Assembly (NCBI RefSeq): GCF_000255455.1
Contig: NZ_JH621247.1
Coordinates: forward strand, 37,434 to 101,433
DNA: 64,000 nt
Direction of reading: 5' to 3'
Source of the DNA: Aquimarina agarilytica ZC1
GTDB lineage: Bacteria > Bacteroidota > Bacteroidia > Flavobacteriales > Flavobacteriaceae
In this document: positions 11,886 through 24,629 of the stretch, piece after piece
How positions within the stretch are numbered: position 1 is the stretch's first letter
Layout: every line of letters starts with the position of its first letter
Made by a program: the position numbers and the translations under genes
Notes under the pieces: generated by a model
The model's input: only the letters and a program-made list of their open reading frames with translations
What the model was told of the DNA's origin: nothing
The model's database searches: none

Positions 11886-12632
11886 ATGTCGTTAAAAAAA
11901 CAAATTCCTAATATAATTACCTTGTTAAATTTATTTTCGGGCTGTATTGCGGTTTACTTTGCTTGTATGAATCAGTTGTTTTTAGCAGCTGTATTTACAG
12001 CATTGGGAATATTTTTTGATTTTTTCGATGGTTTTTTTGCGCGTTTGTTTAATGCGAATAGTGAGCTTGGCTTGCAGTTGGATTCATTGGCGGATATGGT
12101 AACCAGTGGGGTAGTCCCAGGGGTGTTTATGTTTCAGTTATTGTTAGAATCAAGTGCGATTAATGATTCTTTTCCAATAGAGAATATAGGGGGGAATGTT
12201 ATAGAGTGGGTTCCTTTTTTAGGTTTTTTTGTAACCTTGGCTTCGTGTTATCGCTTAGCTAATTTTAATATTGATACGCGACAAACAAGTTCTTTTATTG
12301 GTTTGCCAACACCGGCAAATACTTTGCTTATAATAAGTATAGGTCTGGTTAGTATGTATCAGTCTTCGGGTATTATCGAGGTTTTGATGGATAATGTATG
12401 GGTATTACTGTCAATAGTAGCTTTGAGTTGTTATTTGCTTAATGCAGAAGTGCGACTGTTTGCTTTAAAATTTAAAAATTGGAATATTAAAGATAATTGG
12501 GTACGTTATTTACTTATAATTTCTTCGTTGGTTTTGATTTTGCTTTTTAAATATTTAGGTATAACTTTAACTATATTATTGTATGTTCTTTTGTCTTTGA
12601 TTTTCAGTGGAGAAGAAACCAATGGAGTTTAG
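11886..12632 (+). CDS. pssA: CDP-diacylglycerol-serine O-phosphatidyltransferase
   Basis: The 248-residue polytopic inner-membrane enzyme makes phosphatidylserine from CDP-diacylglycerol and serine, the precursor of phosphatidylethanolamine. The CDP-alcohol phosphotransferase motif is complete: D48-G49-x2-A52-R53-x8-G62-x3-D66-x3-D70. Hydrophobic helices before and after the motif fit the family. The length suits the short Gram-positive/Bacteroidetes type of PssA. It is a single gene just upstream of tRNA-Gln. Confidence 0.92.
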   Translation: MSLKKQIPNIITLLNLFSGCIAVYFACMNQLFLAAVFTALGIFFDFFDGFFARLFNANSELGLQLDSLADMVTSGVVPGVFMFQLLLESSAINDSFPIENIGGNVIEWVPFLGFFVTLASCYRLANFNIDTRQTSSFIGLPTPANTLLIISIGLVSMYQSSGIIEVLMDNVWVLLSIVALSCYLLNAEVRLFALKFKNWNIKDNWVRYLLIISSLVLILLFKYLGITLTILLYVLLSLIFSGEETNGV

Positions 12633-12667
12633 GCTTGAAAAAAAGTTTAATTTTTTGCTTAAAAAAA

Positions 12668-12698
12668 TTTGCCACAAGGGAATTAAGTTTTATATTTG
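12668..12698 (+). promoter_or_regulatory. promoter of tRNA-Gln
   Basis: TTTG (12668-12671), a 19-base spacer and TATATTTG (12691-12698) match the Bacteroidetes housekeeping sigma consensus exactly. The tRNA begins 18 bases after the -7 box. Confidence 0.9.
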
Positions 12699-12716
12699 CA
12701 CCCGTGTTTGAAACAC

Positions 12717-12789
12717 TGGTCTATGGTGTAACTGGCAACACGTCTGTTTTTGGTACAGAAGAGTCTAGGTTCGAGCCCTAGTAGACCAA
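12717..12789 (+). tRNA. tRNA-Gln (anticodon TTG)
   Basis: The acceptor TGGTCTA pairs with TAGACCA. The anticodon stem TCTGT/ACAGA encloses the loop TTTTGGT with anticodon TTG, and the T-arm is CTAGG-TTCGAGC-CCTAG. The U1-A72 pair is typical of tRNA-Gln. CCA is not encoded. The T-stem 3' side and acceptor form the attachment site of the mobile element, which rebuilds an intact gene. Confidence 0.97.
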
Positions 12790-12796
12790 CTTAAAA
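12778..12796 (+). repeat. attL: 19-bp direct repeat at the tRNA 3' end
   Basis: CTAGTAGACCAACTTAAAA begins in the T-stem, covers the acceptor 3' strand and runs seven bases past the discriminator base. The same 19 bases recur at 24517-24535. The bases on either side differ between the copies. Confidence 0.92.
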
Positions 12797-12832
12797 CCCC
12801 TTTAAAACATTGTTTTTTAGGGGTTTTTGTTT
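12793..12832 (+). terminator. terminator after tRNA-Gln, element-borne
   Basis: AAAACCCC (12793-12800) pairs with GGGGTTTT around a stem extended by A/T pairs, followed by T-rich sequence. It lies just inside the element, so the element supplies a new terminator for the tRNA it entered. Confidence 0.75.
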
Positions 12833-12884
12833 TTTTAGGGGGCGAAATAGGGGGGCTAATAATAATTCTTAACAAAATATCTAG

Positions 12885-13400
12885 ATGTCAAATACTATAG
12901 TTTACGAAGACAGATCTAAACGGTTTGACGAAAATATGATAAAAGGGCGTATAGCTGAAACTATTGTTGAGCAGATGTTTATACGCATGGGTTATGATAT
13001 TTATCGTTACGGTATGGAAAACACAGTTCCTGGTATAATACAAGACTTATACAACTGTAAACCTAAAGAAGTATCAGATGAAATTAGGAAGATGCCTGAT
13101 TTTATTATAAAGAATCCAAATGATAATTCTGTATACTATGTTGAAGTTAAATTTAGAGCAGATGGTAAATTTCTATTAAAAGAATTAGGTAAAAATTACC
13201 CTTATAAAAATGCATATATTTTAGTAGTTAGCAAAAAGCATATACGTTGTGTTCTTTATTCGGAACTTGAGGAGTCTGGTGAGCTATTAATGAAAAAAGA
13301 ATACCTATTAGGTTACAGAGAGGACTTCAAGACTAATAGAGAAATTATACTATATTTTTGTGAATTGGCTAAGAAATATTTTAGTTGTCTAGAAAGTTAG
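12885..13400 (+). CDS. PD-(D/E)XK nuclease-like protein
   Basis: The 171-residue protein is not one I can name. It shows the core pattern of a PD-(D/E)XK nuclease: E25 in a helix (GRIAET), then P71-D72 before a hydrophobic strand (DFII) and E87-V-K89 on the next strand (YYVEVKF). This layout is shared by resolvases, restriction enzymes and transposon-end nucleases. It is the only plus-strand gene of the element and the first after attL. Possible roles are defence cargo, DNA processing for excision, or Holliday junction resolution. The fold call rests on a short motif, so confidence is moderate. Confidence 0.55.
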   Translation: MSNTIVYEDRSKRFDENMIKGRIAETIVEQMFIRMGYDIYRYGMENTVPGIIQDLYNCKPKEVSDEIRKMPDFIIKNPNDNSVYYVEVKFRADGKFLLKELGKNYPYKNAYILVVSKKHIRCVLYSELEESGELLMKKEYLLGYREDFKTNREIILYFCELAKKYFSCLES

Positions 13401-13481
13401 TTCAACTGAAATATTTTACTACTATTTATGATTAAAGATTTAATTTGATTTTACAGGAATGATCTGGAGAATATTTTTGTA

Positions 13482-13640
13482 CTACCTTTTATTTCGTATA
13501 AAATAATAGATTAATAGTACTATCGTAACACATAAAGAAAGTAGAATGGCTGATGTTTTAAGTGTATCCAAGAAATCTTCAAGCAGATTATTTAAGTTTT
13601 CAAGTGGATTTTTATTTGTTAGTAGAAAAAAGAGTTTCAT
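13482..13640 (-). CDS. small single-pass membrane protein (52 aa)
   Basis: An intact 52-codon frame starts with ATG at 13640, nine bases after the stop of the HTH-ParA gene, and ends with TAG at 13482-13484. The protein begins MKLFFLLTNKNPLENLNNLL and has a predicted membrane helix at about residues 31-48 (AILLSLCVTIVLLIYYF) followed by a basic end (RNKR). The close spacing suggests co-expression with the ParA-like protein, which it might anchor at the membrane. I recognise no family. Its small size leaves the call uncertain. Confidence 0.5.
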   Translation of the reverse strand: MKLFFLLTNKNPLENLNNLLEDFLDTLKTSAILLSLCVTIVLLIYYFIRNKR

Positions 13641-13649
13641 AATTATTTT

Positions 13650-14681
13650 TTAAGATTTGTCAAGTATTTTTTGCCATTTAGCATTGCTTTTATGTTTTAG
13701 GTCTTCCATTATCAAATCGGCTCCAACTAAACTTTTTAAATGAAATATAACTTTTAAAGTCTCTACGATAAATGGATTATAATAAGCATTTTCAAGGTTT
13801 GATATTGGGTTTAGAGTATCACAAAATAAATCATGTTCTGGAAATTCCTTAAAGGTTTCTGGGATTAATACTATTTCTTGATCACTACAGTAATCATCGA
13901 ATTCATCATCTTCTATTTTTACTAAAAAAGGAATTAAGGAAAAAACAGTGTCATTATTTTTGAAAAGATTTCGATATTCAATAAACAAATCAAGTCGTCC
14001 TTCAGCTATATGTTTTAAATAATCTTTATTATTTTTAAAGGGCTTTTTTAACATACCTCTACCTTTGAAAGGTGAAATTACGAAATCACTTTGATTAGTT
14101 ATTTCCTCTATATAATCAGGGATATAAAAAAACCTAGGTAAATCAATTATGATATAGTCATAGTCTTTCTTTTTTTGATCTATATATTTGGCTAATTCTT
14201 TTGTTTCTATGGACGCAATACTATATAGTGGTTTTATATTTGGAAAAACTTCTAAATCTAATGCTCTTTTATCATAGCAAGAATTTTGATAATGTGAGTC
14301 GATAAATAATAATTTATAATCTTTGGAAATCTCATTTGCTAAGATTATTGACAAAGTAGAAACGCCCATTCCTCCTTTAAAACTTGTAAATGATATTACT
14401 TTGTTTTTTAACTTTTTGTTAGAAGTTATTTCTGAATTATGAGAGATTTTAATTTTGTTATAGCAAATTTCTAATACTTCATCAATTTTAATGTTTAGAT
14501 ATTTACATAACTTCACTACCTCGAATACCTTTATTTCTCTTCGTCCAGATTCAATATGACTAAAGGTAATTGGAGATATACCAATTTTGTTAGCCAGGTG
14601 CGATTGTGTGAGACCTAATTCTAACCTCTTTATTCGAATTTTTGAGATCAGTAAACTATTATACTCTTTGTTTGTATCCAT
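13650..14681 (-). CDS. HTH-ParA fusion protein with altered Walker A
   Basis: Residues 13-70 form an XRE-type helix-turn-helix (RIKRLELGLTQSHLANKIG, SHIESGRR). Residues from about 93 on look like a ParA/MinD ATPase: ISFTSFKGGMGVSTL (97-110), Walker A' LLFID (D128) and Walker B YIIID (D180). The deviant Walker A should read KGGxGK[ST]; here it is K102-G-G-M-G-V107-S-T. The signature lysine is kept but the P-loop lysine is valine, so ATP hydrolysis or binding is doubtful. The protein may repress its own promoter and partition the element or position transfer proteins. It precedes a 52-aa membrane protein gene. Confidence 0.72.
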   Translation of the reverse strand: MDTNKEYNSLLISKIRIKRLELGLTQSHLANKIGISPITFSHIESGRREIKVFEVVKLCKYLNIKIDEVLEICYNKIKISHNSEITSNKKLKNKVISFTSFKGGMGVSTLSIILANEISKDYKLLFIDSHYQNSCYDKRALDLEVFPNIKPLYSIASIETKELAKYIDQKKKDYDYIIIDLPRFFYIPDYIEEITNQSDFVISPFKGRGMLKKPFKNNKDYLKHIAEGRLDLFIEYRNLFKNNDTVFSLIPFLVKIEDDEFDDYCSDQEIVLIPETFKEFPEHDLFCDTLNPISNLENAYYNPFIVETLKVIFHLKSLVGADLIMEDLKHKSNAKWQKILDKS

Positions 14682-14799
14682 ATCGTATTATGTGTGATTG
14701 TAAATATAGTAAAATAATACAATATGTTATTTCGCTTAAGACTTTGTTATTTCTTAAATCAAATAAATTATTATCTTAAAAATAGTTTGTTAACTTGGA

Positions 14800-14818
14800 A
14801 ATAACCTTTAGGGTTATT
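14800..14818. repeat. short hairpin AATAACC/GGTTATT
   Basis: A 7-bp perfect stem with a five-base loop lies in the gap between the TraQ-like and ParA-like genes, 37 bases from the larger inverted repeat. There is no T-tract of terminator type. Confidence 0.4.
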
Positions 14819-14855
14819 CTAAATTAACGAACGTGCGTGCAATAAGACTATAGTT

Positions 14856-14919
14856 ATTGTATAAATTCATACCATGCGAGAAACCAATTATTATCTCCTG
14901 TGGTACAAATTTATACAAT
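14856..14919. repeat. 19-bp imperfect inverted repeat with 26-base loop
   Basis: The arms 14856-14874 and 14901-14919 match at 17 of 19 positions, with ATTGTATAAATT perfect in both. The loop holds a second possible stem GAGA/TCTC. It begins ten bases past the stop of the TraQ-like gene. No T-tract follows on either strand, so it is not a standard terminator. It could be a protein-binding site, a 3' mRNA stabiliser or a second-strand origin. Confidence 0.55.
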
Positions 14920-14928
14920 AGGTTACAT

Positions 14929-16041
14929 TTAAAAGTCAGTTTTGACGGTAACAGTCTTACTCACTTCAAAGCCAGTATTATTAAATACGGTAAAAATTAC
15001 TTCTCCAGGAACTACATTTCCTGAATAATTTAGAGAATACGAAAAAGTTTCATTTTGAATTCCTGAAAAGTTATCTAGTAATATATTTTCACCAAAAACT
15101 ATCTTTCCATTGTTGAATAAGATGTTTTCGGTCGTAGTTGAAATTCGTAAATAATAATCCAAGTCATAAAAGTATCCTGTTGCAAACGAAGGTCTATTTA
15201 ACGTCACATTTATAAAGTCGTTAATAGAGCCTGAGTTTATAGTTATAACGGTCTTAGATAAGCTAAAATCGAATTCTACGGGTTCTGCAGTTAAGCCATC
15301 AAAAGTTTTGGTTTTAGTAACTCCATTACTAGCAACAATAGTAACTGTAAAATTATTTTTTTCAATAACCTCTGTAGGTATATAGTCAAAAACATAATTA
15401 CCTTTTGAAAGATTCGAAATTGTCTCAGGTAAATTTGAGTAGCCAATCCAATTAATTTCTCCATTTGAGTTGCTGCTTATATTCATAGTATAAGTTAAGA
15501 GCTCATCAGAAGTTTGTTCTATATTAAGGTTTAAACTTGTTCTTTCTCCAAAAAGGACCTCTTCTTTCAATGGAGTAAAGCTAAATTTAAAATCAGTTAA
15601 TTCTTTGGTAACAGAATAAATAACTTTGGCAGTTGCTGAATGTTTCTTATTGTCATCAACGAAAATTTCAATTTCAATTTCTCCTTCTTCAGTTGGAACA
15701 AATTCAAGAGTATAGTCTAGACTTTTTATAGATAAATCATAGATTGTATTTTCTTGAATTTTAGTGCCATCAATTTTATAGTGCCCTTTATCATCAGCAT
15801 TATATGAAAATGAAAAAACAGTACTATCGACTAAGTTTTCAGGTAAAATGATTAATTCATTTTGAATTGTTTCAGATAGCAGAGCTTCATTAGTTCCAGT
15901 AACTGAAATTTGAAAAGGAAAGCTATCTATAATTGTACTTTCATCTTCACAAGCCAGTAAAAAAATAGAAAGCGTTGCGATTAATAAAGTATTAAAATGA
16001 TACTTTATTAAAATATTAAATTGTTTAAATAATAAATTCAT
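14929..16041 (-). CDS. TraQ-like (DUF3872-type) lipoprotein with three Ig-like units
   Basis: The 370-residue protein has a lipoprotein signal ending LLAC (C31) followed by acidic EDES, suggesting surface exposure. The first unit (about 45-145) resembles Bacteroides TraQ/DUF3872 in pattern: F-x-F-x-V start, FSFSYN, DGT, LEFVPTEEGEIEIEIFV. Two further units (about 150-255 and 256-370) have the same beta-sandwich layout, so it looks like a triple-length TraQ. It follows the TraO-like gene by 18 bases and closes the relaxase operon. I infer a role in transfer at the outer membrane. An alternative is an unrelated Ig-like surface lipoprotein. Confidence 0.55.
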   Translation of the reverse strand: MNLLFKQFNILIKYHFNTLLIATLSIFLLACEDESTIIDSFPFQISVTGTNEALLSETIQNELIILPENLVDSTVFSFSYNADDKGHYKIDGTKIQENTIYDLSIKSLDYTLEFVPTEEGEIEIEIFVDDNKKHSATAKVIYSVTKELTDFKFSFTPLKEEVLFGERTSLNLNIEQTSDELLTYTMNISSNSNGEINWIGYSNLPETISNLSKGNYVFDYIPTEVIEKNNFTVTIVASNGVTKTKTFDGLTAEPVEFDFSLSKTVITINSGSINDFINVTLNRPSFATGYFYDLDYYLRISTTTENILFNNGKIVFGENILLDNFSGIQNETFSYSLNYSGNVVPGEVIFTVFNNTGFEVSKTVTVKTDF

Positions 16042-16059
16042 AATTGTAAAAGTTTAAGA

Positions 16060-16764
16060 TTAAAAGTGATAGCGTATTCCGGCTCCGATAATGAACTTAT
16101 GTAATGAAACATCGCTAGTAGTAAAGAAGTTTGAATTGCGGAATACAGCAGATAGGTTATTGTTGATTTTGAAAAGAGAAAATATTCCTGTATAACCACC
16201 ATAGATTAGACCATCTTCGGTTTCTAGAATAGCACCGTTTGAGAGTTTGTCTTTTCCGTCGTTTAGTAATTCAGCACCTACAGCTCCACCAATTGTAAAT
16301 CTTGTAGTAATGGTGCTTGTTTTATTGCTTAAAAAACTAAGCTGTTTAGTGTATCCTAAATTCAAAATAAAGACTTCTGAAGGTATTTCTAATTCTTTGG
16401 CTAGTAAATCATTGTTGTCATAATACAATCCCATTTCAAGCCCCTTGTTTTTATCAGTATCTATTTCAATACTGAAATTCGCTTGATAACCTAGACCTTC
16501 ATTGTCTGTTATACCAATAATAGTTTCAAAGCTTGCATATGTGGTTTTCCTTGATTTTTCTTTTTTCATTAGCCTAAATGATCTAGTGCTATAGCTCTTT
16601 TGTAATAGTTTTAATTCATTTTCGATTTGCTTATTTTGCATCTGCAGACGATTTAATTGGAAGTGAAGGGTTTCTTCAGATTGCTTTTGTAATTCTGTTT
16701 CGTTTTGAGCAAATGCTCCCTGTGCCATAGCTATTACTGCTATGGAAAAAAATAGTTTTTTCAT
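16060..16764 (-). CDS. TraO-like outer membrane protein
   Basis: The 234-residue protein has a signal peptide (ending GAFAQ), a short coiled-coil stretch (about residues 22-58) and a beta-barrel-like remainder. The segment GGAVGAELLNDGKDKLSNGA followed by LIYGG, and the C-terminal strand FIIGAGIRYHF, parallel what I remember of CTnDOT TraO, a conjugation protein of the Bacteroidetes type IV system. The N-terminal coiled coil is not usual for TraO. It starts 16 bases after the coupling protein gene, in the same operon as the relaxase. The assignment rests on remembered family patterns and needs a profile search. Confidence 0.6.
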   Translation of the reverse strand: MKKLFFSIAVIAMAQGAFAQNETELQKQSEETLHFQLNRLQMQNKQIENELKLLQKSYSTRSFRLMKKEKSRKTTYASFETIIGITDNEGLGYQANFSIEIDTDKNKGLEMGLYYDNNDLLAKELEIPSEVFILNLGYTKQLSFLSNKTSTITTRFTIGGAVGAELLNDGKDKLSNGAILETEDGLIYGGYTGIFSLFKINNNLSAVFRNSNFFTTSDVSLHKFIIGAGIRYHF

Positions 16765-16780
16765 AATAAAAATTTAAATG

Positions 16781-18184
16781 TTAAAGATTGAATTTCTTAG
16801 TTAGAGTAGGTGTTGTAGTAGATTTTTTGAGTAAAAAATTTATGTCACTATAGACTTTTTCGTAAGCTCTTTGCTCATCAATATTTTTTTGAGGTTGGAT
16901 AGGAATGGGCTTAATTTTTTTTAAGTAGTGATTTCCATTCAATCGTTTGCCTTCAATAAGTCTTTCATTACCTTCAGCAATGATGGCAGTACACATACCT
17001 GCTTTATAATTAATAACTTTTTCACGTCTTAAAATGTCTCTCTCGATACTTGAATAACTATGAGTTGGACCATCTAAACTTAAACCTCCTTGTTTTTCTG
17101 AAATAGATGTTTTTTCGACTTCTCGTTTGCCTAATGTTTTTTGAAAATGATCTAAGGTTTCAGGGCTTGTGGTTCTGAAAAGAAATTGAGAGCCCATGTT
17201 GGCTATAATTGAGCTAGCTTCCTCTTTTCCGTACTTTAAAACTAGTTGACTAAAATCCTGTATGGCAATACAAGTAGCTATTTTGTTACTTCTTGCTGTC
17301 TCAGGGATATTGCTAAAATTTGGAATAGATAATACTGTAAATTCGTCAATAATTACAGCACTTTCGTGTTGGTCAGGGATATTCATCTTTTTTAGAATTA
17401 GACCAATAATTGAACTATAAATAGGGCTATAGATATCTCGCTTTTGTAAATTGAAGATTAAGTTTATTATACTTGGATTGTTTGGGTCGTTAGGTAATGG
17501 TAAATCAGTATCGGAAAGTAGGTTTCTAAATATTCGCGGTACATCTAACGAAGCAAAAAAAGCAGTAAAAGTACTCATCATAGAGCCTAAGAGTTTTTTG
17601 TCTCCTGAAACACTAGAAAGTACCTGTGCACTTCTTTTAGCTTCTTCGTCACTAAAAATCAGCTTGATAATTTGCTCAGGATTAGCAGTTAGAAATAATG
17701 CAATAATATGTGGGATACTACAGAATTTTGGGTGCTTTTTTCTTAAGAAAAGAATTGTTCCAGTTAGTATACTTTTTGCAGAATTAAAGAAGTACTTAGC
17801 TGCGTCGTTCTTTGGAATACCCACGATACCACTTAAAAAATAACTGCTGAATTCAATAATGTCTGATTTATCTTCACACAATGAAAGCACGTTAATAGTA
17901 TTAAAATTGTTATCTAAACTAAAATTGATAATAGGTTTTTCGTTTTGCTTAGCAATTCCATTTATTAGTGGTGTCAATTCTCCTTTTGGGTCAAAGGTTA
18001 TACAGCCTTTGTGTTTTACACAGTAAGAAAGTAATGGGTTTATGTACGAATACGTTTTTCCACTTCCTGCACCGCCTACGGCAATAGCTCCACGATTCAG
18101 ATTATTTATTCTGTAGTGTTTTGAAAACCTACCGCTCTTTAAATAGAATGGAGGTGTTTTTGGTTTTAAAAAATCTAATTTCAT
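16781..18184 (-). CDS. type IV coupling protein (VirD4/TraG/MobC-like), no membrane anchor
   Basis: The 467-residue ATPase brings the relaxase-DNA complex to a secretion channel. Walker A is GGAGSGKT (37-44), then the typical ITFDPKGEL (61-69), and Walker B is VIIDEF (D279-E280). The all-alpha region is near 120-220. The N-terminal membrane helices of VirD4 are absent. I start at the ATG at 18184 because it overlaps the relaxase stop as ATGA, a translational coupling signal; an upstream in-frame ATG at 18226 would add 14 residues inside the relaxase gene. Bacteroides IMEs often pair a relaxase with such a MobC protein. Confidence 0.88.
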   Translation of the reverse strand: MKLDFLKPKTPPFYLKSGRFSKHYRINNLNRGAIAVGGAGSGKTYSYINPLLSYCVKHKGCITFDPKGELTPLINGIAKQNEKPIINFSLDNNFNTINVLSLCEDKSDIIEFSSYFLSGIVGIPKNDAAKYFFNSAKSILTGTILFLRKKHPKFCSIPHIIALFLTANPEQIIKLIFSDEEAKRSAQVLSSVSGDKKLLGSMMSTFTAFFASLDVPRIFRNLLSDTDLPLPNDPNNPSIINLIFNLQKRDIYSPIYSSIIGLILKKMNIPDQHESAVIIDEFTVLSIPNFSNIPETARSNKIATCIAIQDFSQLVLKYGKEEASSIIANMGSQFLFRTTSPETLDHFQKTLGKREVEKTSISEKQGGLSLDGPTHSYSSIERDILRREKVINYKAGMCTAIIAEGNERLIEGKRLNGNHYLKKIKPIPIQPQKNIDEQRAYEKVYSDINFLLKKSTTTPTLTKKFNL

Positions 18185-18840
18185 CTTTCGTAAATTTGAG
18201 TGTGTTGCGGTTTGTCCTTTTTCCAAAGTTGTTCGTGTTTGGTTTTACTGCCTGCTTCACCTCTTTGCATTCCATATTTTTCCATTAATTCAGCATAGCG
18301 TGTTTGTTGTTCGGCTAAGGATTTTCTTCCATTAATAAATTCTTTAGCACTTAATCTTCCATCATTTGTGATTGGTACAATTACAGCATGTAAATGGGGT
18401 GTTGTTTCATCAAGATGTAAATGCATACTCAAAACATTTTCTTCGCCATATGTTTCAGATAGGAATGTTTTATTATCTTTCATCCAGCTTTGAACTAAGT
18501 TTTCGTCACTAAAGATTTCAGCCATTTTTGCGTTATCAGAAGTCATGATATAGTCAATAGCTTTTACAGCATCTTTTCGAATGTTTTTTTGAATTTTATA
18601 TCGTGATTTTATTTCATTTTGAATGCGGTCTTGAAATGGTGTTTTTTTACAATAATTAGCCCATTCTTTTTGTGTGTATGACTGCCCGTTTTTGTCCCAA
18701 TGTATATTGTTTAAAATGGCTCTATCTTGAATATTTGACGGATAGCATAATTCTCCATCACTTGTGCATCGATCAATATGATTGCCTAGTGATCCCGACA
18801 ATGATTTTATTTTGTTAAGTCTTAAAATTGCATAGCTCAT
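18181..18840 (-). CDS. MobV (Pre/Mob) family relaxase, short form
   Basis: The 219-residue protein nicks oriT and leads the DNA strand into the recipient. Its start (MSYAILRLNKIK) parallels MobM of pMV158, and H21 aligns with the catalytic histidine of MobM (H22). The metal-binding motif H142-L-D144-E-T-T-P-H149-L-H151 is complete. It ends soon after the catalytic domain, whereas classic MobV relaxases are about twice as long, so the membrane-association and dimer region is missing. It overlaps the coupling protein gene by ATGA. The oriT lies 68 bases upstream of the start. Confidence 0.92.
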   Translation of the reverse strand: MSYAILRLNKIKSLSGSLGNHIDRCTSDGELCYPSNIQDRAILNNIHWDKNGQSYTQKEWANYCKKTPFQDRIQNEIKSRYKIQKNIRKDAVKAIDYIMTSDNAKMAEIFSDENLVQSWMKDNKTFLSETYGEENVLSMHLHLDETTPHLHAVIVPITNDGRLSAKEFINGRKSLAEQQTRYAELMEKYGMQRGEAGSKTKHEQLWKKDKPQHTQIYER

Positions 18841-18907
18841 TTTGTATTATTTTTAATTTTACTATTAAACTATCTCCCCCTCGGAGAGCAAACTTCACCT
18901 TTCGGAG

Positions 18908-18936
18908 AAAGTGTAGTTTGTTACACTTTACACAGG
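18908..18936 (+). other. oriT of the pMV158/MobV type
   Basis: AAAGTGTA (18908-18915) and TACACTTT (18922-18929) form an 8-bp inverted repeat, with GTTTGT between. The pMV158 oriT, as I remember it, is AAAGTATA-GTGTGT-TATACTTTAC, nicked as GTGTG|TT. The match predicts a nick between 18920 and 18921 on the plus strand. Transfer would then lead with the replication and integrase end, and the relaxase gene would enter last, as expected. A further imperfect stem (CAAACTTCACC and its complement) and two copies of CGGAGA lie just to the left. Confidence 0.82.
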
Positions 18937-18944
18937 TTTGAAGT

Positions 18945-19517
18945 TTAGAAGTATCTATTATGGATAATTTGGCCTCCTTTTTTGGTATATAAAATGAAGT
19001 AATAAATAGCTATCCAGCCTAATGGAATATACCAGGCATAAAATATTTTATCCGTCTCAAAATAGATCCGAAGGAGATCATGTTCGCCAAGAACAATTCC
19101 TTGTTTTTTATTGCTCATAGCAATAGAATAACAACTATAAATTATGAGCTGTAAAACCCCTAATAATGAGGTTTTATAAAAGGCGTCTTTCCAGTTGTAT
19201 TTTTTTTGGAATTTTAGGAACGAAAACAAGACTATATTACATAGTGAAATAGATAAATTTTTGAGGTTAAAATCCAGGTTCCTTAAGAGGAAATAAAAAG
19301 CTTTTTTTCCTCTTAAATTTGTTTCTTTTAGACATTGTAAAGATTCTGTTGTTAAAGATTCAGCGAACAGAAAAAATAAACCGCTGATTATTGCTATTGG
19401 AAAAAATAAGATCATTACATTTCTGACTAATAGCTGTAGGAGCTGTAATTTCATTCTTGATGGTATCATGTTTTGTTTTTTAAGTTGAGTTTCTGATTTT
19501 TTAAAATCTACGATCAT
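18945..19517 (-). CDS. polytopic membrane protein of unknown function
   Basis: The 190-residue protein has three or four predicted membrane helices (about residues 30-52, 85-100, 112-135 and 158-178) and no motif I recognise. It begins at an ATG that overlaps the end of the DnaC-like gene by 17 bases; a second ATG at 19469 is an alternative start. Its position between the replication module and oriT suggests a role tied to transfer, entry exclusion or immunity, but this is only inference from context. Confidence 0.55.
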   Translation of the reverse strand: MIVDFKKSETQLKKQNMIPSRMKLQLLQLLVRNVMILFFPIAIISGLFFLFAESLTTESLQCLKETNLRGKKAFYFLLRNLDFNLKNLSISLCNIVLFSFLKFQKKYNWKDAFYKTSLLGVLQLIIYSCYSIAMSNKKQGIVLGEHDLLRIYFETDKIFYAWYIPLGWIAIYYFILYTKKGGQIIHNRYF

Positions 19518-20274
19518 TTCCTGTTAAAGGAATAATATTGAACATTTCATATAATCTACTTTTTACTTGAGGGGAGTATCTTTTTTCTAGTTTTTCAATG
19601 CTAAGATTTGTGGTAACAAAAGTTTTCTTTCCTAAATTTTTGAAATTGTTATATCTAATCTGTAAAATGCGATCGAAAAGTTCTTCTTTAATTCCCCAAG
19701 CTTGTACTTGGTTTTCAGTGCCTAAATCATCAAAATGAATAGTGCCTCTGGAATATTTTTCAATTACAGATTCACCACCATTTCCATACGCCTTACTTTC
19801 TTTGTTAAACTCAGTTATCACAGTATGAACCGAAGTGTTTTTAAAATAGATTTGCTTTAAATCATACTTTAGGCTTATGCTTTGAATAATATCAAATATT
19901 GAACTCTTTCCTGTTCCACACTCGCCATAAATTAAAAGCCCTTTTCTAAGCTCTCCATTTGTTATTTTTTCAAATTCGATATCGTCCGAAAAGTATCGAG
20001 AGATGATATCTAAAAAGAGCTTATTTTCACTATCAACATTGAAGTATCTCCCCTTTGAAGCAAAATATTTTTTGCCTTCTACCCAAATTTGTTTTTTTAT
20101 CCACTGAGTTGGAATTGGTGTTAATGGTCTAGGTTTGTTTTTTTCTTTCAGAGAATCAAAATATTGATTGCTTTTTTTGGTTTCTTCTTTTTTGAGCTCA
20201 ATTCTTTTTTTTCTTTCTTCCTCAGTTTCCAAACCCATTTGAATTTTTGCCTGTTGCCCTAGAGAGTTTTTCAT
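19501..20274 (-). CDS. DnaC/IstB-like AAA+ ATPase (helicase loader)
   Basis: The 257-residue protein has Walker A GECGTGKSS (117-125), Walker B TIHFDDLG (D182-D183), sensor TTN (221-223) and a probable arginine finger R240 (VKSRLYEM). This is the AAA+ form that loads replicative helicase or assists transposition. The start overlaps the stop of the winged-helix gene as ATGA, so the two are coupled. With that protein it likely forms an initiator-loader pair that replicates the excised circle using the host DnaB. Confidence 0.8.
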   Translation of the reverse strand: MKNSLGQQAKIQMGLETEEERKKRIELKKEETKKSNQYFDSLKEKNKPRPLTPIPTQWIKKQIWVEGKKYFASKGRYFNVDSENKLFLDIISRYFSDDIEFEKITNGELRKGLLIYGECGTGKSSIFDIIQSISLKYDLKQIYFKNTSVHTVITEFNKESKAYGNGGESVIEKYSRGTIHFDDLGTENQVQAWGIKEELFDRILQIRYNNFKNLGKKTFVTTNLSIEKLEKRYSPQVKSRLYEMFNIIPLTGNDRRF

Positions 20275-20702
20275 TTTTTTCTTGGATTAGCATTAATGAA
20301 TTTTCTTTTTGAATTTTTCTTTTTTAAATAATTATTAGATGTATTATTAATACTCGTATTATTATCATTCAAAATTTCTTGTATAGGTCTATTCAAATTA
20401 ATTTTACTAGGGTGGGAAAAAATTGTGATATACCTATGCAAAATTTCTTTACTACCATCAGCACGATAAATAAACCTTTCAATGTATCCGCATTCTTCCA
20501 ATTGAAGAAGCCAGTTATTGATAGTTTGTTTCGAAACTTGATAGAGTTCTTCAAAATATTTATTAGTAGACCAACAAATACGGTGATTATTAGTAAGAGC
20601 GGTTATTTCGGCAAAAAGAATCTTTGCAGCCGGCGATAACCTTTTGTCGTATCTTATTTCTGCAGGGAGTATTGCATAATAGTTTGGCTTGGATTTTTCC
20701 AT
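20271..20702 (-). CDS. winged-helix replication initiator-like protein
   Basis: The 143-residue protein starts with the phage/plasmid replication signature YYAILPAEIRYDKRLSPAAK and then a winged helix (WSTNKYFEELYQVSKQTINNWLLQLEECGYIER, given here as two adjoining helices, residues about 39-72). The tail is basic and low in complexity (SNNYLKKKNSKRK). It resembles DnaD/RepA-type N-terminal domains that bind the origin. It is coupled to the DnaC-like gene. No iterons are obvious in the upstream 100 bases, so the origin site remains unknown. Confidence 0.68.
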   Translation of the reverse strand: MEKSKPNYYAILPAEIRYDKRLSPAAKILFAEITALTNNHRICWSTNKYFEELYQVSKQTINNWLLQLEECGYIERFIYRADGSKEILHRYITIFSHPSKINLNRPIQEILNDNNTSINNTSNNYLKKKNSKRKFINANPRKK

Positions 20703-20765
20703 AGTAAATGATTTTGTAAATACAGTATCTTTGTGCTGTATTAATATGTTAGATGTTAATTAGAA

Positions 20766-20799
20766 AGTCTAAAAGAAGTGTCAGAAGCTATTTTAGACT
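20766..20799. terminator. hairpin after the excisionase-like gene
   Basis: AGTCTAAAA (20766-20774) pairs with TTTTAGACT (20791-20799). The T-tract that follows is on the plus-strand side, while the gene it would end is on the minus strand, so function as a terminator is uncertain. Confidence 0.4.
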
Positions 20800-20802
20800 T
20801 TT

Positions 20803-21105
20803 TTATTTTCTAGATGCTTTTACAAGCTTTGAGTTTTTTCTTGCTTGAGTTAAAAGCTCTTTTTTAGAATAGAATACAGTCCTGCCTATTTTATAGTAGG
20901 GTATGAGTTCTTTCTTTTTCCATTTAATTAAGCATTGCACTGAAACTCCAAGTAAGTCTGCTGCTTCTGTTTGGGTAAGTCTATCTTCTTCGGGATTAGC
21001 TGAGGATTCATCTATCAGCTCAGTTTTTCTAAGGCGATTCACCACTAATTCTATAGTGTGTTCTAAGTCCTTTTTTGAAAAACCGTATAATATTGGATTA
21101 CTCAT
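20803..21105 (-). CDS. excisionase-like HTH protein
   Basis: The 100-residue protein carries a MerR-like helix-turn-helix of the excisionase/HTH_17 class at about residues 44-90 (RLTQTEAADLLGVSVQCLIK, then YYKIGRTVFYSKKEL). In Bacteroidetes mobile elements such small proteins promote excision with the tyrosine integrase or regulate transfer genes. The N-terminal 40 residues look helical. It is separated from the integrase by the unknown 372-aa gene. Confidence 0.75.
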   Translation of the reverse strand: MSNPILYGFSKKDLEHTIELVVNRLRKTELIDESSANPEEDRLTQTEAADLLGVSVQCLIKWKKKELIPYYKIGRTVFYSKKELLTQARKNSKLVKASRK

Positions 21106-21243
21106 GTTAATTGATTTTTAAATAATTCATAGTTAACTTTTGTTAACACATCAAAACTATTTTTAAAATCACATGATAAATTATCGTTTTTGAAAAGATA
21201 ATTTTATTTGCTGATAATCAGATTTTTATATATTTAATTTTTT

Positions 21244-22362
21244 TTAAATAGATAATTCTTTCCAAGACATTGAGTAATTTAATAAAGTGTTTTTTTTAGG
21301 ATGGGTAGTGCTTTTATTGTAAATCTTTTTTAGCATAGGAATGGAAAGTTTAGTGTTAAAATAGCTATGTAGATTTCTTATAATTTGAATTTTCTTTGAT
21401 TTTTTAAGAGCGTTTTTTTCGGAAAGAAATAAGAACATTTCCATAATTTTTTCAAGTTGATCCCTATTTAGGTCTAATCTTTCATGATTAAAACTTTGTT
21501 TTACAAATAGAAAATCAAAAAAATCGTTGCTGTTTATTGGAAGTAGAGTGCAATATTCCTCAAAGAATCGTTTAATAAATTTTGATAGATTTTGTTTGCT
21601 AATTGTAGAGGTGTCAATATTGATTATTTGAGTCAGATAGTCTTGATTTGATTTTAAGTCTTCGTTTGATTGTAATTGAGTTAATAGTTCCCAAATTGTA
21701 GATTCTGTTAAATCAAGCAAACTTTTATTTGTTATTTTTTTATTCTCCAAGGTTAAAAAATCATTAGCAATTGTGGGATGCATATATTTGCTAGAATGGT
21801 TTACTATGGGTTCTTTATACTTTTTCAGTAAAAATTTTCTATACTGTAATCCAGTAGTAATTCCATATAGTATTTCTAAAATAGAATCTGGGTCTGTTTC
21901 TCCATTATTAAAATTATTTCCTGTTAAATAGATTTTACTTACGATTTTTTGTTGAATTCTAACATGGTAATTGTTGATTTCAAGATGATCTATGTTTTCA
22001 GGTTGATGAAGCCAATTAAAAGCTTCTAGTGCTGAATCATCACCTTGGGAATAATTATAATTGGCTTCATCTAGCATAAGTTTATCATATATCAGTAACT
22101 CATTAGTATGCGGATGTATTCTGCAATACTCTAAATCAAAAAACAGGTTAAAATGTCCTGGAGTGAATGGTAATGATAGAAGATCGTTGTCTTCAGGCAT
22201 ACCTAAAATTGAACCTAACAGTTTAATTCTATCCAAAAAAGGCAGATTAGCTATCATACCTTTAACGAGATAAAATTCGGGAGTTTCTTTTTCAGAGTTG
22301 GTATCTAACCATTCTAAACTAGTTACCATTTTTTTAATGTATTCTATATTGTACATATTCAA
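21244..22362 (-). CDS. unknown protein translationally coupled to the integrase
   Basis: I do not recognise this 372-residue protein. It is rich in leucine, asparagine and aromatic residues, with a central segment containing HFNLFFDLEYCRIHPHTNEL and a helical C-terminal part (MEMFLFLSEKNALKKSKK, IPMLKKIYNK). No signal peptide or membrane helix is seen. Its ATG overlaps the integrase stop (22359-22362, ATGA), so it is made together with the integrase. A role in integration or excision control is plausible. RteC was considered but I could not match its motifs. Confidence 0.6.
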   Translation of the reverse strand: MNMYNIEYIKKMVTSLEWLDTNSEKETPEFYLVKGMIANLPFLDRIKLLGSILGMPEDNDLLSLPFTPGHFNLFFDLEYCRIHPHTNELLIYDKLMLDEANYNYSQGDDSALEAFNWLHQPENIDHLEINNYHVRIQQKIVSKIYLTGNNFNNGETDPDSILEILYGITTGLQYRKFLLKKYKEPIVNHSSKYMHPTIANDFLTLENKKITNKSLLDLTESTIWELLTQLQSNEDLKSNQDYLTQIINIDTSTISKQNLSKFIKRFFEEYCTLLPINSNDFFDFLFVKQSFNHERLDLNRDQLEKIMEMFLFLSEKNALKKSKKIQIIRNLHSYFNTKLSIPMLKKIYNKSTTHPKKNTLLNYSMSWKELSI

Positions 22363-23594
22363 ATTTTATTCCAAGTATTATCCATTTCGTTTTTCTTAAA
22401 ATCATCAGCAATTTCTACATAGCGTTTAAACGACGATTCATCTTTATGACCAGTAATATTGCGTACTACCATTTCTTTCATTCCAAGAATTAAAGAGTTT
22501 GTCACAAAAGTTTTTCTAGCTGTATGACTAGTAATTAATTGATGTTTTGGAAACACTTTATCAACTCTTTTTTGACCAATATATCGTGTAGTGTTTACAG
22601 GAGTATCAATGCCAACTATTTTGCAACACTCTTTTATATACTGATTAAATTTTTGACCTGAGATTTTAGGTATAGGCTCGTAAAGAGTGTCTTTATACTT
22701 GTTTAAAATGGCTTTGGAAAAAGCATTTAAAGGTATTTTGTGGTCAATGGTCTTTGTTTTTTGAACATTAAGTTTTAGGTAATCTTCATAAATATTTGAA
22801 GGTTTAAGCTGTTTTATATCGCTAAATCTCAATCCTGAAAAGCAACCTAAACAATAAAAGTCTTTAACGTGTTCCAGGCGTTTAGATTCAAACTCGTAAT
22901 TATAGAGTTTCATCAGTTCATCCATGGTTAAATAAATTACCTCGATTGTATTGCTTACGGTCTTAAATTTTTTGAATTCTAAATTTTCATGGTATTTTCT
23001 TTCGTAAGACCAATTCATGAAAGTTTTAAGCACTGATATTATTCTGCCGTAATAATTATTGAGCGTGTTTCTTTCTTCAAAAGCGTAATCTCTAAAATCT
23101 TCGTAAAAATTAACGTCAACATTGTCAAATCTTAAGTTATATTTTTTTGCTACATCAAAATCCTTTATGAAATTTTTACAGGATATATATTTTTTAATTG
23201 TACCGTTTGCCTTAGTTGATTTATTGGTGTCAATAAATTCTTGGAATGATTCAAAAAAACTTGGAGCAATACTATTTGAATTTATGCTGTCGTTTTCAAG
23301 CTTGTCAATTACATATTCCTTAGTTAATGGAATGTTGTTTAGCAAGGCATGCCTATGAATTAGCTTAAGCTTGTTTTCAAGTTCATCAAGCTCCTTATTG
23401 AATTCAATATGGAAATTGTAATCTTCATTTTTAAGATTGGCTTTAACTCTTTGGTTTTTCCAGTCCTTTTGCTTGGTTCTTACGCTCTTTACGTTCCTAC
23501 GAATCCTTTCACCGTTTAGAGTGATAATCATACGAACAGGAATAAATCCGTCTTTGTTTATTTTATCTTTTCGTAATGTGAATGAAACTTGCAT
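22359..23594 (-). CDS. int: tyrosine recombinase (integrase)
   Basis: The 411-residue protein catalyses site-specific integration and excision. An arm-binding region (residues about 1-85, with NGERIRRN) precedes a SAM-like core-binding domain (110-205) and the catalytic domain. The active residues are R256 (SGLRFSD), probably K281 or a neighbour, H357 and R360 (SHTARKT), H383 (TGHKD) and nucleophile Y392 (KRYVEI). This is the Bacteroidetes phage-integrase/CTn type. Given the repeats at tRNA-Gln, that gene is its target. Confidence 0.95.
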   Translation of the reverse strand: MQVSFTLRKDKINKDGFIPVRMIITLNGERIRRNVKSVRTKQKDWKNQRVKANLKNEDYNFHIEFNKELDELENKLKLIHRHALLNNIPLTKEYVIDKLENDSINSNSIAPSFFESFQEFIDTNKSTKANGTIKKYISCKNFIKDFDVAKKYNLRFDNVDVNFYEDFRDYAFEERNTLNNYYGRIISVLKTFMNWSYERKYHENLEFKKFKTVSNTIEVIYLTMDELMKLYNYEFESKRLEHVKDFYCLGCFSGLRFSDIKQLKPSNIYEDYLKLNVQKTKTIDHKIPLNAFSKAILNKYKDTLYEPIPKISGQKFNQYIKECCKIVGIDTPVNTTRYIGQKRVDKVFPKHQLITSHTARKTFVTNSLILGMKEMVVRNITGHKDESSFKRYVEIADDFKKNEMDNTWNKI

Positions 23595-23648
23595 AAAATT
23601 TTAATTATTACCTGCTAAAAGCTATAAGTGCTAGTAAGGATAGATTAG

Positions 23649-23948
23649 CTAAACTGCTTGTTTTGTATAAGGTTGAATTTTATTAATGTCATCTTCTTTT
23701 TCAATTTGAGCTTTCCTAATTTCGTAGAAGGATTGTAAGTTTGACCAAAATTCTGGGCTGTTTCCAAAAAATTTGCTTAATCTTAATGCCATTTCGCCAC
23801 TTATACCCATTTCTTCACGTACAATTTTACCTACTCTAGAATCACTTACGCCAATACTTTTAGCCAATTTATAGGCTGTTATTCCCATGGGTTTTAAAAA
23901 ATCCTCTCTAAGCATCTCTCCAGGGTGTACGTTCATTTGCTTTTCCAT
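23649..23948 (-). CDS. higA: HigA-family antitoxin
   Basis: The 99-residue protein has the HigA/VapI start VHPGEMLREDFLKPMGIT and an XRE helix-turn-helix (AYKLAKSIGVSDSRVGKIV), ending with FFGNSPEFWSNLQ, which is standard for the family. It neutralises HigB and represses the operon. It follows higB by 12 bases, in the inverted toxin-first order typical of higBA. Its place beside attR fits stabilisation of the integrated element. Confidence 0.92.
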   Translation of the reverse strand: MEKQMNVHPGEMLREDFLKPMGITAYKLAKSIGVSDSRVGKIVREEMGISGEMALRLSKFFGNSPEFWSNLQSFYEIRKAQIEKEDDINKIQPYTKQAV

Positions 23949-23960
23949 TTTTACATCTTT

Positions 23961-24242
23961 TTAGTGATAATCTATAATTTCTACATCGTAAGCATTGTGA
24001 TTATTCCACTTGAAAATAATTCGCCATTGCATATTTATACTAATTGAGTGATATTCTTTTAAATTTCCTTGTAACTGGTGTAATCTATTGCCAGGCGGAA
24101 TCGTAAGATCATTTAAATCTTTTGATGAATGAATTTGTACGAGCTTTCTAAAAGCTTTTTTTTGAATTGATGCATCTATCTTTTTAGATGAATGACCCGC
24201 AAACAATTTTTCTGTTTCTTTATCGCCAAACGATTTTATCAT
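23961..24242 (-). CDS. higB: HigB-family toxin (RelE superfamily mRNA interferase)
   Basis: The 93-residue protein has the HigB pattern: IKSFGDKETEKLF at the start, LNDLTIPPGNRLHQLQG in the middle and WRIIFKWNN near the end, with EIIDYH closing. Family members cleave mRNA on the ribosome. Length and motifs are intact, so it should be active. It is the gene of the element nearest to attR, reading inward from the edge. Confidence 0.92.
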   Translation of the reverse strand: MIKSFGDKETEKLFAGHSSKKIDASIQKKAFRKLVQIHSSKDLNDLTIPPGNRLHQLQGNLKEYHSISINMQWRIIFKWNNHNAYDVEIIDYH

Positions 24243-24268
24243 TTCAATTATATGTTAGTAAATATACA

Positions 24269-24298
24269 CAACAAAAAGTTAGTAAACAACAAAAAGTT
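24269..24298. promoter_or_regulatory. direct repeats upstream of higBA
   Basis: CAACAAAAAGTT occurs at 24269-24280 and 24287-24298, 18 bases apart, just upstream of higB. On the minus strand a TATATTTA box follows. Tandem sites near the promoter are a good candidate for HigA autorepression. Confidence 0.5.
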
Positions 24299-24405
24299 TG
24301 TATGTAATTTTTTTTGTAATGTTTCATTATATTTATTGAAGTTTAACTTAAGCCTTATTAATATTGATTGTTATTAATTAATTAGGGGGTTAAAAAGGGG
24401 GATAA

Positions 24406-24445
24406 AAACTATGTTTAATACATTAAATAGTATTAAACATAGTTT
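24406..24445. repeat. 16-bp perfect inverted repeat near attR
   Basis: The arms 24406-24421 (AAACTATGTTTAATAC) and 24430-24445 are exact complements around an eight-base loop. On the minus strand a TTTTTA run follows, so it may stop transcription entering the element from outside. It could also be an integrase or excisionase arm site, as it lies 72 bases inside attR. The rest of the gap between higB and attR holds no gene. Confidence 0.6.
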
Positions 24446-24516
24446 GTGTAAACCCTTATGTGTTCAAATATAGGGAATTAAATGACATTAATAGGAGTTA
24501 AAAAAGTATGGTGGTT

Positions 24517-24535
24517 CTAGTAGACCAACTTAAAA
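24517..24535 (+). repeat. attR: 19-bp direct repeat
   Basis: This is the second copy of the tRNA-derived 19-mer at 12778-12796. Bases to its left (GTGGTT) do not continue the tRNA T-arm, so no second tRNA exists here. Confidence 0.92.
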
Positions 24536-24567
24536 GGAGCTTTCATTTTTGAAAGCTCCTTTTTTTT
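24532..24567. terminator. terminator at the right junction, probably the original one of tRNA-Gln
   Basis: AAAAGGAGCTTTCA pairs with TGAAAGCTCCTTTT around a TTTT loop and a T-tract follows. It overlaps the last four bases of attR. In the uninterrupted chromosome it would directly follow tRNA-Gln. It can now also stop the minus-strand stress-protein transcript. Confidence 0.8.
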
Positions 24568-24629
24568 GTTTATATGTGTAGGTTTTTTTGGGTGGCCTAT
24601 GTTGAGTAAGTTTTTGTCATATGTTAAGC

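Follow-up and report, generated by a model that had tools for sequence, protein, structure and literature searches.

Why does a mobile element that encodes a relaxase and a coupling protein but no secretion channel carry TraO and TraQ, i.e., two outer-membrane proteins of conjugation machines of the mating-pair formation (MPF) class MPF_B? The question is raised by the 64,000 nt of Aquimarina agarilytica ZC1 studied here (contig NZ_JH621247.1, positions 37,434 to 101,433; the window). Therein, an 11.8-kb element at 12778-24535 is inserted in tRNA-Gln and bounded by 19-bp ends. Its host, probably a marine bacterium, has a genome of 4.25 Mb (89 contigs, 99.3% complete). The answer that we favour, and to which we give about an even chance, identifies it as an integrative and mobilizable element (IME) that brings the two ends of a conjugation machine, namely the type IV coupling protein (T4CP) and an outer-membrane module, and borrows the middle.

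The genes in question form an operon on the minus strand in the order MobV relaxase, T4CP, TraO, TraQ with gaps of -4, 16 and 18 bases, just as a preliminary description of this DNA had located them. The T4CP starts either at the ATG that yields the 4-base overlap with the relaxase stop or at TTG 18226, as in the list of open reading frames (ORFs). The family assignments made in that description were borne out by Pfam, where both proteins score above the cut-offs. TraO reaches 52.2 bits (cut-off 25) over profile positions 22-167 of 168 of PF10626, and TraQ a weak 32.1 bits (cut-off 27) over positions 5-126 of 133 of PF12988; NCBIfam yielded no match for either. TraQ also shows an LLAC lipobox-like signal, identified by eye, and is 41% identical to the TraQ of a relative (L237, see below). 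In L033 and two plasmids, TraO and TraQ are positioned within MPF_B sets. Thus, like SGI1-type IMEs, the element encodes homologues of helper-class MPF parts.

Both operon genes are the sole TraO and the sole TraQ of the whole genome. Genome-wide searches for TraM (PF12508) and the TraG P-loop domain (PF19044) gave 0 matches each, such that the claimed lack of any other channel part holds for these two families; TraN (PF13595) was not among the families searched there. The searches are able to detect their families, since matches arose in other genomes (TraM in 9/15, TraG in 2/8).

Structure prediction had been proposed earlier as a check. The low-confidence TraO model (pLDDT 55, pTM 0.45) has eight strands, and its best PDB matches are 8-stranded outer-membrane barrels of OmpA/NspA type. 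The TraQ model was too poor (pLDDT 42, pTM 0.30) and was discarded. The TraOs of the window, L236, L237, L080-L083 and L240 have additional residues ahead of the barrel domain, which form a helix in the window model. Such extended TraOs measure 217-241 aa vs. about 178-194 aa in most TraOs read from integrative and conjugative elements (ICEs). In L238 and L239, a separate 96-aa one-pass protein lies between T4CP and TraO in place of the extension.

We then asked how far this arrangement recurs. In the following, loci are labelled L and genomes G, g128 denotes the second genus sampled (at a guess, Flavobacterium), and L030 is the same locus as L080. Among 397 genomes of the family, the window TraO matched 22 (own genome included) and the window T4CP 123, where the best two other loci also carry TraO. 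Further TraO scans gave 6 loci in one genome collection and matches in 17/395 phylum genomes, 46/299 g128 genomes and 33/66 genomes of the host genus (51 places). Neighbouring genes in the host genus were read over 5-11.5 kb per TraO place (16-20 kb for G177); L115-L120 lie outside the loci read. In total, 17 distinct element loci have a T4CP followed by TraO and no TraN or TraM match in the neighbourhood, and this recurrent order is therefore more than chance. Eleven belong to the host genus (window, L081, L082, L083, L084, L236, L237, L238, L239, L240, L241), L080 to another genus, and one each to the g128 genomes G704, G627, G776, G953 and G827, with identical TraOs in G627 and G953. TraQ follows TraO in 12/17 (window, the ten other host-genus loci, L080), as judged by Pfam or BLAST. 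That is, the Pfam scan of relatives was limited to L030, L083 and L084, of which the first two pass, and the L084 TraQ is, without a Pfam match, assigned by BLAST like those of the remaining relatives.

The T4CP-TraO unit coexists with three kinds of relaxase, i.e., MobV (window), DUF5712 (Pfam; L030 and L084) and PF03432 (Pfam; L109); a DUF5712 gene also adjoins the T4CP on a plasmid typed MOBB. Among the 30 g128 TraO loci read, TraO lies behind a T4CP in 5 and by TraN or TraM in 25. The 51 places of the host genus split into the 11 element loci, 7 with TraN or TraM, and 33 to which we return below.

Comparison of the 12 element loci with TraQ shows that TraO and TraQ are exchanged as a unit between relaxase-T4CP backbones, which tend to stay together. 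For instance, L084 and L240 are 84% identical in the relaxase and 77% in the T4CP vs. 33% in TraO and 30% in TraQ; their integrases differ too. The window and L236 show the same pattern (relaxase 57%, T4CP 66%, TraO 29%, TraQ 28%). The reverse is found for L239 and L240 (T4CP 43%, TraO 56%, TraQ 61%) and for the window and L241 (T4CP 32%, TraO 43%, TraQ 34%), and for TraO in L236 and L080 (T4CP 31%, TraO 52%, TraQ 29%). The rank correlation of relaxase and T4CP is 0.82 (6 elements). Among all 12 elements, correlations are 0.57 for TraO-TraQ (p 0.002), 0.48 for T4CP-TraO (p 0.01) and 0.45 for T4CP-TraQ (p 0.01). Once near-copies are removed (9 elements), the respective values are 0.55 (p 0.0002), 0.21 (p 0.10) and 0.21 (p 0.13). 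A 47-row TraO tree unites the window with L237 and L241 (support 100/99) and rejects grouping by backbone in approximately unbiased (AU) tests, both for window, L236 and L237 (p 1.6e-5) and for L084 and L240 (p 5.4e-5), where the p values are not those of a blind test because the groups were picked after the BLAST labels were known.

Furthermore, purifying selection acts on both genes in L080-L083, the four loci analysed. Ratios of nonsynonymous to synonymous divergence (dN/dS) lie at 0.10-0.14 for TraO and 0.11-0.31 for TraQ. Relaxase and T4CP reach 0.05-0.08 where computable; several dS values are saturated. TraQ varies most at its end: L080 and L081 have 94% identical T4CPs and 65-66% identical TraQs, of which the final 100 residues share 32-34%. 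These residues are likewise the least similar in L082 vs. L083 (64-68%).

The origin of the TraO slot behind the T4CP was investigated by trees of both proteins. The 53-row TraO set omits L101 (no TraO by BLAST), L012 and L023 (match inside longer ORFs) and loci represented by longer stretches. The 47-row tree drops six near-copy ICE rows, adds 5/30 orphan regions and omits the ICE regions L226 and L228 and the element rows L110 and L158. The 12 TraQ-linked element TraOs form their own lineage (89/97, not starred), separate from the sampled ICE TraOs, and three g128 element TraOs share a group with two TraOs of G704 ICEs and the TraO of the Flavobacterium plasmid pGSB-24 (100/98). Smaller trees also split the element TraOs in two; here, a single clade was not rejected, i.e., AU p was 0.052 for 33/53 rows (without 18 rows of a distant clade, one copy and the window row) and 0.076 for 39 rows. 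Judging from these sequences, two TraO lineages likely occupy the same slot. Recruitment from helpers of the same genome was considered and fits the g128 elements alone (G704 has both kinds).

In the first T4CP tree, each of the 11 T4CPs that adjoin a TraO (8 elements, 3 ICE rows) falls on the same side of a branch (94/97); the window T4CP has a long branch and its placement is unsure. The extended tree, which holds 10 of the 27 TraO-less rows of the first one as well as added plasmid T4CPs and omits the window row, rejects a common clade of the ten element rows (AU p 5e-8). A single origin of the slot was thus discarded, and we dropped the claim of one clean T4CP clade because of this value. 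Some related plasmid T4CPs have no adjoining TraO. The L080 T4CP shares 42.7% identity with that of plasmid NZ_CP103117 (6.7 kb, also with a DUF5712 gene) and 52.0% with that of NZ_CP041688 (66 kb); TraO is absent from the ORFs of the former plasmid and of 15 kb of the latter, and neither is among the TraO matches in the plasmid collection, where TraQ was not searched. The sister group of the NZ_CP041688 T4CP consists of four g128 element T4CPs out of five (100/99); on this plasmid, a GIY-YIG gene comes directly after the T4CP. In L109, TraO and a lipoprotein gene lie between the T4CP and a gene resembling this GIY-YIG gene (35% over 97 residues). The slot has therefore gained, or lost, its genes more than once.

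The retention and exchange of the TraO-TraQ pair among relatives suggest that elements of this kind modify their borrowed machines. The element would excise via its own integrase, MobV would nick its DNA, and its own T4CP would dock it on the MPF_B machine of a co-resident helper. TraO, a putative outer-membrane barrel, and TraQ, its presumed surface lipoprotein partner, would enter the helper machine of the donor and displace the helper's pair, with the inner-membrane and core middle coming from the helper. The gain would probably be an altered surface, which could open other recipients or allow escape from exclusion by helper-holding cells. We infer excision and transfer, hybrid assembly, subunit replacement and benefit in this scheme; docking by the own T4CP and a new outer-membrane module are suggested by analogy with SGI1 and with part swaps in F plasmids. 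There, according to excerpts of the respective study, DNA was still transferred, in many cases without pili, after T4CPs or outer-membrane core parts had been swapped between distant systems, and inner-membrane parts were not swappable (PMC10939261). The part classes that tolerated swapping in F plasmids are those that the elements carry. A possible helper is the host-genus plasmid NZ_CP053591, annotated with TraG, DUF4138 (TraN), TraO and TraQ in one run; TraM is present in 27/66 genomes of the genus. With more doubt than trust, we extend this proposal to a large family of mobilizable Flavobacteriaceae elements in which both exchangeable MPF_B ends are on board and TraO-TraQ is traded as a specificity cassette, which would give any helper a new surface for recipient choice or for bypassing helper exclusion.

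Several observations weigh against such a borrowed middle. A helper was not detected in the host genome (TraM and TraG searched), and element-bearing genomes of the host genus are not richer in TraM than others (3/10 vs. 24/56). The 12 TraQ-linked TraOs are not recent copies of the sampled ICE TraOs. All five g128 element loci have an ORF of 160-164 aa after TraO instead of TraQ; the respective ORFs of L109 and L156, the two compared, have a lipoprotein-like start and no significant TraQ likeness (best E 0.02). No T4CP, TraN or TraM was detected in the stretch read for 33 of the 51 host-genus TraO places, many of which occupy recurring chromosomal positions, and 17 genomes of the genus have TraO without TraM. 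Six of the orphan loci read (L045 and five other regions) adjoin a fumarase gene, and two TraO places lie 145-173 kb apart on one contig in eight host-genus genomes. Given how frequent such places are, TraO-TraQ may work without a channel, and if orphan loci act as a surface module alone, the element pair may do so too. Some of the 33 may be ICE fragments, and the chromosomal orphans are possibly domesticated surface modules. The preliminary description had envisaged SGI1-like remodelling of a helper. Recurrence, purifying selection, pair exchange and the variable TraQ tip fit the analogy with SGI1 and a diversifying, transfer-related outer-membrane module; the 33 places oppose a strict reading of the pair as channel subunits.

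Loci of the orphan kind are L045 and L046 (G177), L192-L194, L196-L198, L202-L206, L209-L225, L227 and L232, many with TraQ-like genes. A further TraO clade (100/100) joins L047, L113, L042 (20 kb each), L022 and L028 (3.4 kb each). The first three are TraN-TraO-TraQ clusters with no TraG or TraM by BLAST over 20 kb. In L042 (7180-13478; G080), no other channel gene was found by BLAST in 19.9 kb, and TssC of type VI secretion is near (784.7 bits); L047 has three consecutive TraQ-like genes.

The orphan places, common in the host genus, would suit a role in surface exclusion or interference, where TraO-TraQ, located in the outer membrane of the element-bearing cell, block entry or mating-pair formation by related ICEs, plasmids and elements and never join a channel. 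Pair exchange and the variable TraQ tip are compatible with the arms race this implies, and elsewhere exclusion genes occur among transfer genes, e.g., TrbK between TrbJ and TrbL (excerpts of PMC5704250). We nevertheless consider it unlikely: a common operon with the relaxase and T4CP genes speaks for a role in donors, both proteins are homologous to parts of the machine, with the TraO domain almost complete, unlike short exclusion proteins, and the seven chromosomal orphan TraOs placed in the tree form a separate clade with L048 (100/99). A self-contained adhesin, in which TraO anchors the surface lipoprotein TraQ and holds a mating pair or biofilm partner beside the helper machine, appears less probable still. 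It draws on the low-confidence eight-strand model with its OmpA/NspA-type matches, on the long TraQs read in many flavobacterial ICEs and plasmids (582 to 2062 aa; the TraQ family gene of pGSB-24 spans 9051 bp, L155 15549-24599), and on the Ig, PKD and cadherin-like domains of the TraQ-like protein of the L113 cluster. This length is not general, however, since the TraQs of the 12 elements are short (251-473 aa) and the ORF after TraO has merely 140-143 aa in two ICE loci (L190, L191). Moreover, TraO lies by TraN or TraM in the 25/30 g128 loci and on two plasmids, as a machine part would.

Finally, TraO-TraQ could be inactive remnants of a decayed ICE. Decay is frequent among mobile elements, and neither protein has a known role without a helper. 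Open frames in 17 loci, dN/dS well below 1 in the four loci compared and the probable occupation of the slot by two TraO lineages render this very improbable.

The features of the element are collected in Table 1.

Table 1. Features of the element and its insertion site (window positions; E-values are given for profile matches).
Feature	Position	Strand	Evidence
tRNA-Gln(TTG), integration site	12717..12790	+	ARAGORN, Rfam tRNA
Left end, 19-bp direct repeat CTAGTAGACCAACTTAAAA, overlapping tRNA 3' end	12778..12796	.	repeat search
Cargo ORF, weak VRR_NUC-like match	12885..13400	+	0.021, below cut-off
HTH_3 fused to ParA-like ATPase	13650..14681	-	HTH_3 5.7e-12, AAA_31 1e-7
TraQ: lipoprotein, TraQ domain N-terminal	14929..16041	-	PF12988 1.3e-7, residues 18-138
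TraO: signal peptide, helix residues 29-67, eight predicted strands	16060..16764	-	PF10626 8.6e-14
T4CP (VirD4-like ATPase), 467 aa from ATG, without transmembrane domain	16781..18184	-	PF02534 (T4SS-DNA_transf) 4.6e-25; PF12696 1.2e-21
MobV relaxase, 219 aa	18181..18840	-	NCBIfam NF041497 2.4e-49 (above cut-off); Pfam Mob_Pre 4.9e-34
Hairpin upstream of relaxase gene, candidate origin of transfer (oriT)	18889..18920	-	DNA folding of 18841-18944
190-aa multi-pass membrane protein	18945..19517	-	three hydrophobic segments, simple Kyte-Doolittle scan
DnaC-like ATPase	19501..20274	-	NCBIfam PRK06835 2.1e-14, below cut-off
HTH_36 protein	20271..20702	-	1.3e-11
Excisionase-like helix-turn-helix (HTH) protein	20803..21105	-	HTH_17 9.6e-9; NCBIfam excise 0.00011 (below cut-off)
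Unnamed ORF overlapping integrase	21244..22362	-	no Pfam match above cut-off
Tyrosine integrase	22359..23594	-	Pfam Phage_int_SAM_5, Phage_integrase, Arm-DNA-bind_5
HigA-like antitoxin	23649..23948	-	HTH_3 1.2e-8; name from position next to HigB
HigB toxin	23961..24242	-	PF05015 4.6e-22
Right end, second 19-bp repeat copy	24517..24535	.	repeat search

As in an IME, the integrase, the excisionase-like HTH protein and the 19-bp ends at tRNA-Gln provide for integration and, as predicted from these genes, excision. The 19-bp repeat is the longest exact repeat between 12600-12900 and 24000-25000. The mobilization genes (MobV, T4CP) likewise come without a complete type IV secretion system (T4SS), as the genome has no detected TraG or TraM. 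With T4CP, TraO and TraQ, the element departs from a canonical Bacteroidetes IME, which lacks coupling and MPF proteins. The fold that contains the candidate oriT hairpin has a z of -2.72, with 3/200 shuffles equally stable. Several relatives have long unnamed ORFs at the same place as the ORF overlapping the integrase. The HTH_3/ParA-like fusion, possibly a regulator or a partition protein, adjoins the tra operon inside the element. In the window, the tRNA is the sole Rfam match, and a promoter and terminator scan stayed near chance level.

The T4CP itself appears to be split. It has no hydrophobic segment, as is also the case for L236; the T4CP of L237, whose start is doubtful, has one at its extreme N-terminus. 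In all three MobV elements, a gene for a small multi-pass membrane protein is part of the operon or adjoins it; its product measures 190 aa (window), 142 aa (L236, 9238-9666) and 165 aa (L237, 11700-12197). In the window and L236, the MobV gene is located between membrane protein and ATPase genes (order membrane protein, MobV, ATPase). The L236 membrane protein resembles the N-terminal part of an undivided T4CP (31%, 8e-4; placement by eye). The window protein has no homologue among the loci compared or in the plasmid collection, and homology among the three membrane proteins is not established. T4CPs without a membrane domain are a described subfamily, of which some act with small membrane proteins (excerpts of PMC7434980). 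The 190-aa protein is hence a candidate membrane partner of the T4CP, and the separate ATPase and membrane protein may function like an undivided T4CP.

Cargo differs among the elements. The window cargo was considered for defence genes, for which PADLOC yielded weak matches alone. An AbiD-like abortive-infection gene is found in L080 (15250-16155; 5.8e-79 for the L030 copy), L238 (8233-9138) and L239 (6736-7653). The L238 and L239 copies share 93% and 86% identity with the L080 gene, the TraOs of these two elements just 36% and 35% with the L080 TraO; perhaps this cargo is exchanged between elements. L082 carries defence-like cargo at 15365-18499 (PDC-S60 candidate, 4.9e-96), and L084 a restriction-like gene (REase_II 8.7e-84) by a DNA methyltransferase-like ORF, the latter identified by eye (14499-17547).

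If our reading is true, nature has repeatedly run a subunit-swap experiment. Pairs such as L084 and L240, i.e., a like relaxase-T4CP with a different TraO-TraQ, then provide an entry to what the outer-membrane end decides, namely recipient choice and exclusion. What TraO and TraQ do in Bacteroidota conjugation is hardly treated in the literature found, of which we used excerpts. The lack of a Bacteroidetes precedent, stated beforehand, agrees with these: a review of IMEs (PMC5704250) and the open-access literature, including PMC11104534 and PMC12857230, describe no such TraO-bearing element in the parts considered (subscription papers, preprints and supplements are outside this scope).

SGI1 with its IncC helpers is among the systems most alike. 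This island, too, is mobilizable and codes for some components of the helper-class machine and no complete set (PMC5389848, PMC5704250). Its versions displace TraN, TraH and TraG of the helper, which raises SGI1 transfer and seems to disable exclusion (PMC5389848). In contrast to the window element with its relaxase and T4CP, SGI1 has no relaxase-related protein and no coupling protein in the review's account (PMC5704250). Furthermore, its parts belong to MPF_F of Gammaproteobacteria and those of the window element are outer-membrane proteins of MPF_B, and replacement of helper parts is established for SGI1, whereas we infer it here. The review's non-canonical IME class combines a relaxase with some T4SS proteins, and IMEs carrying MPF parts are described in Proteobacteria (PMC5704250). 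Among these, the IncP island of Burkholderia glumae likewise joins a canonical relaxase with few MPF parts (TrbJ, TrbK, TrbL). These are, however, VirB5/VirB6-type and exclusion parts of MPF_T with no T4CP named in the text cited, vs. T4CP, barrel and lipoprotein in the window element (PMC5704250). GISul2, also grouped as a borrower of machine parts, is without a relaxase, unlike the window element (PMC5704250).

Within Bacteroidota, NBU1, NBU2, Tn4399, Tn4555 and Tn5520 also bring their own relaxase (MobV in Tn5520), with MPF_B ICEs as mobilizing helpers of the first four (PMC5704250). They differ in that the review, as of 2017 and in the part cited, gives no coupling or MPF protein for any of the few Bacteroidetes IMEs (PMC5704250). 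If the proposed mechanism is true, helper remodelling, known in Proteobacteria, extends to Bacteroidota, where neither T4CP nor MPF proteins were described for earlier IMEs.

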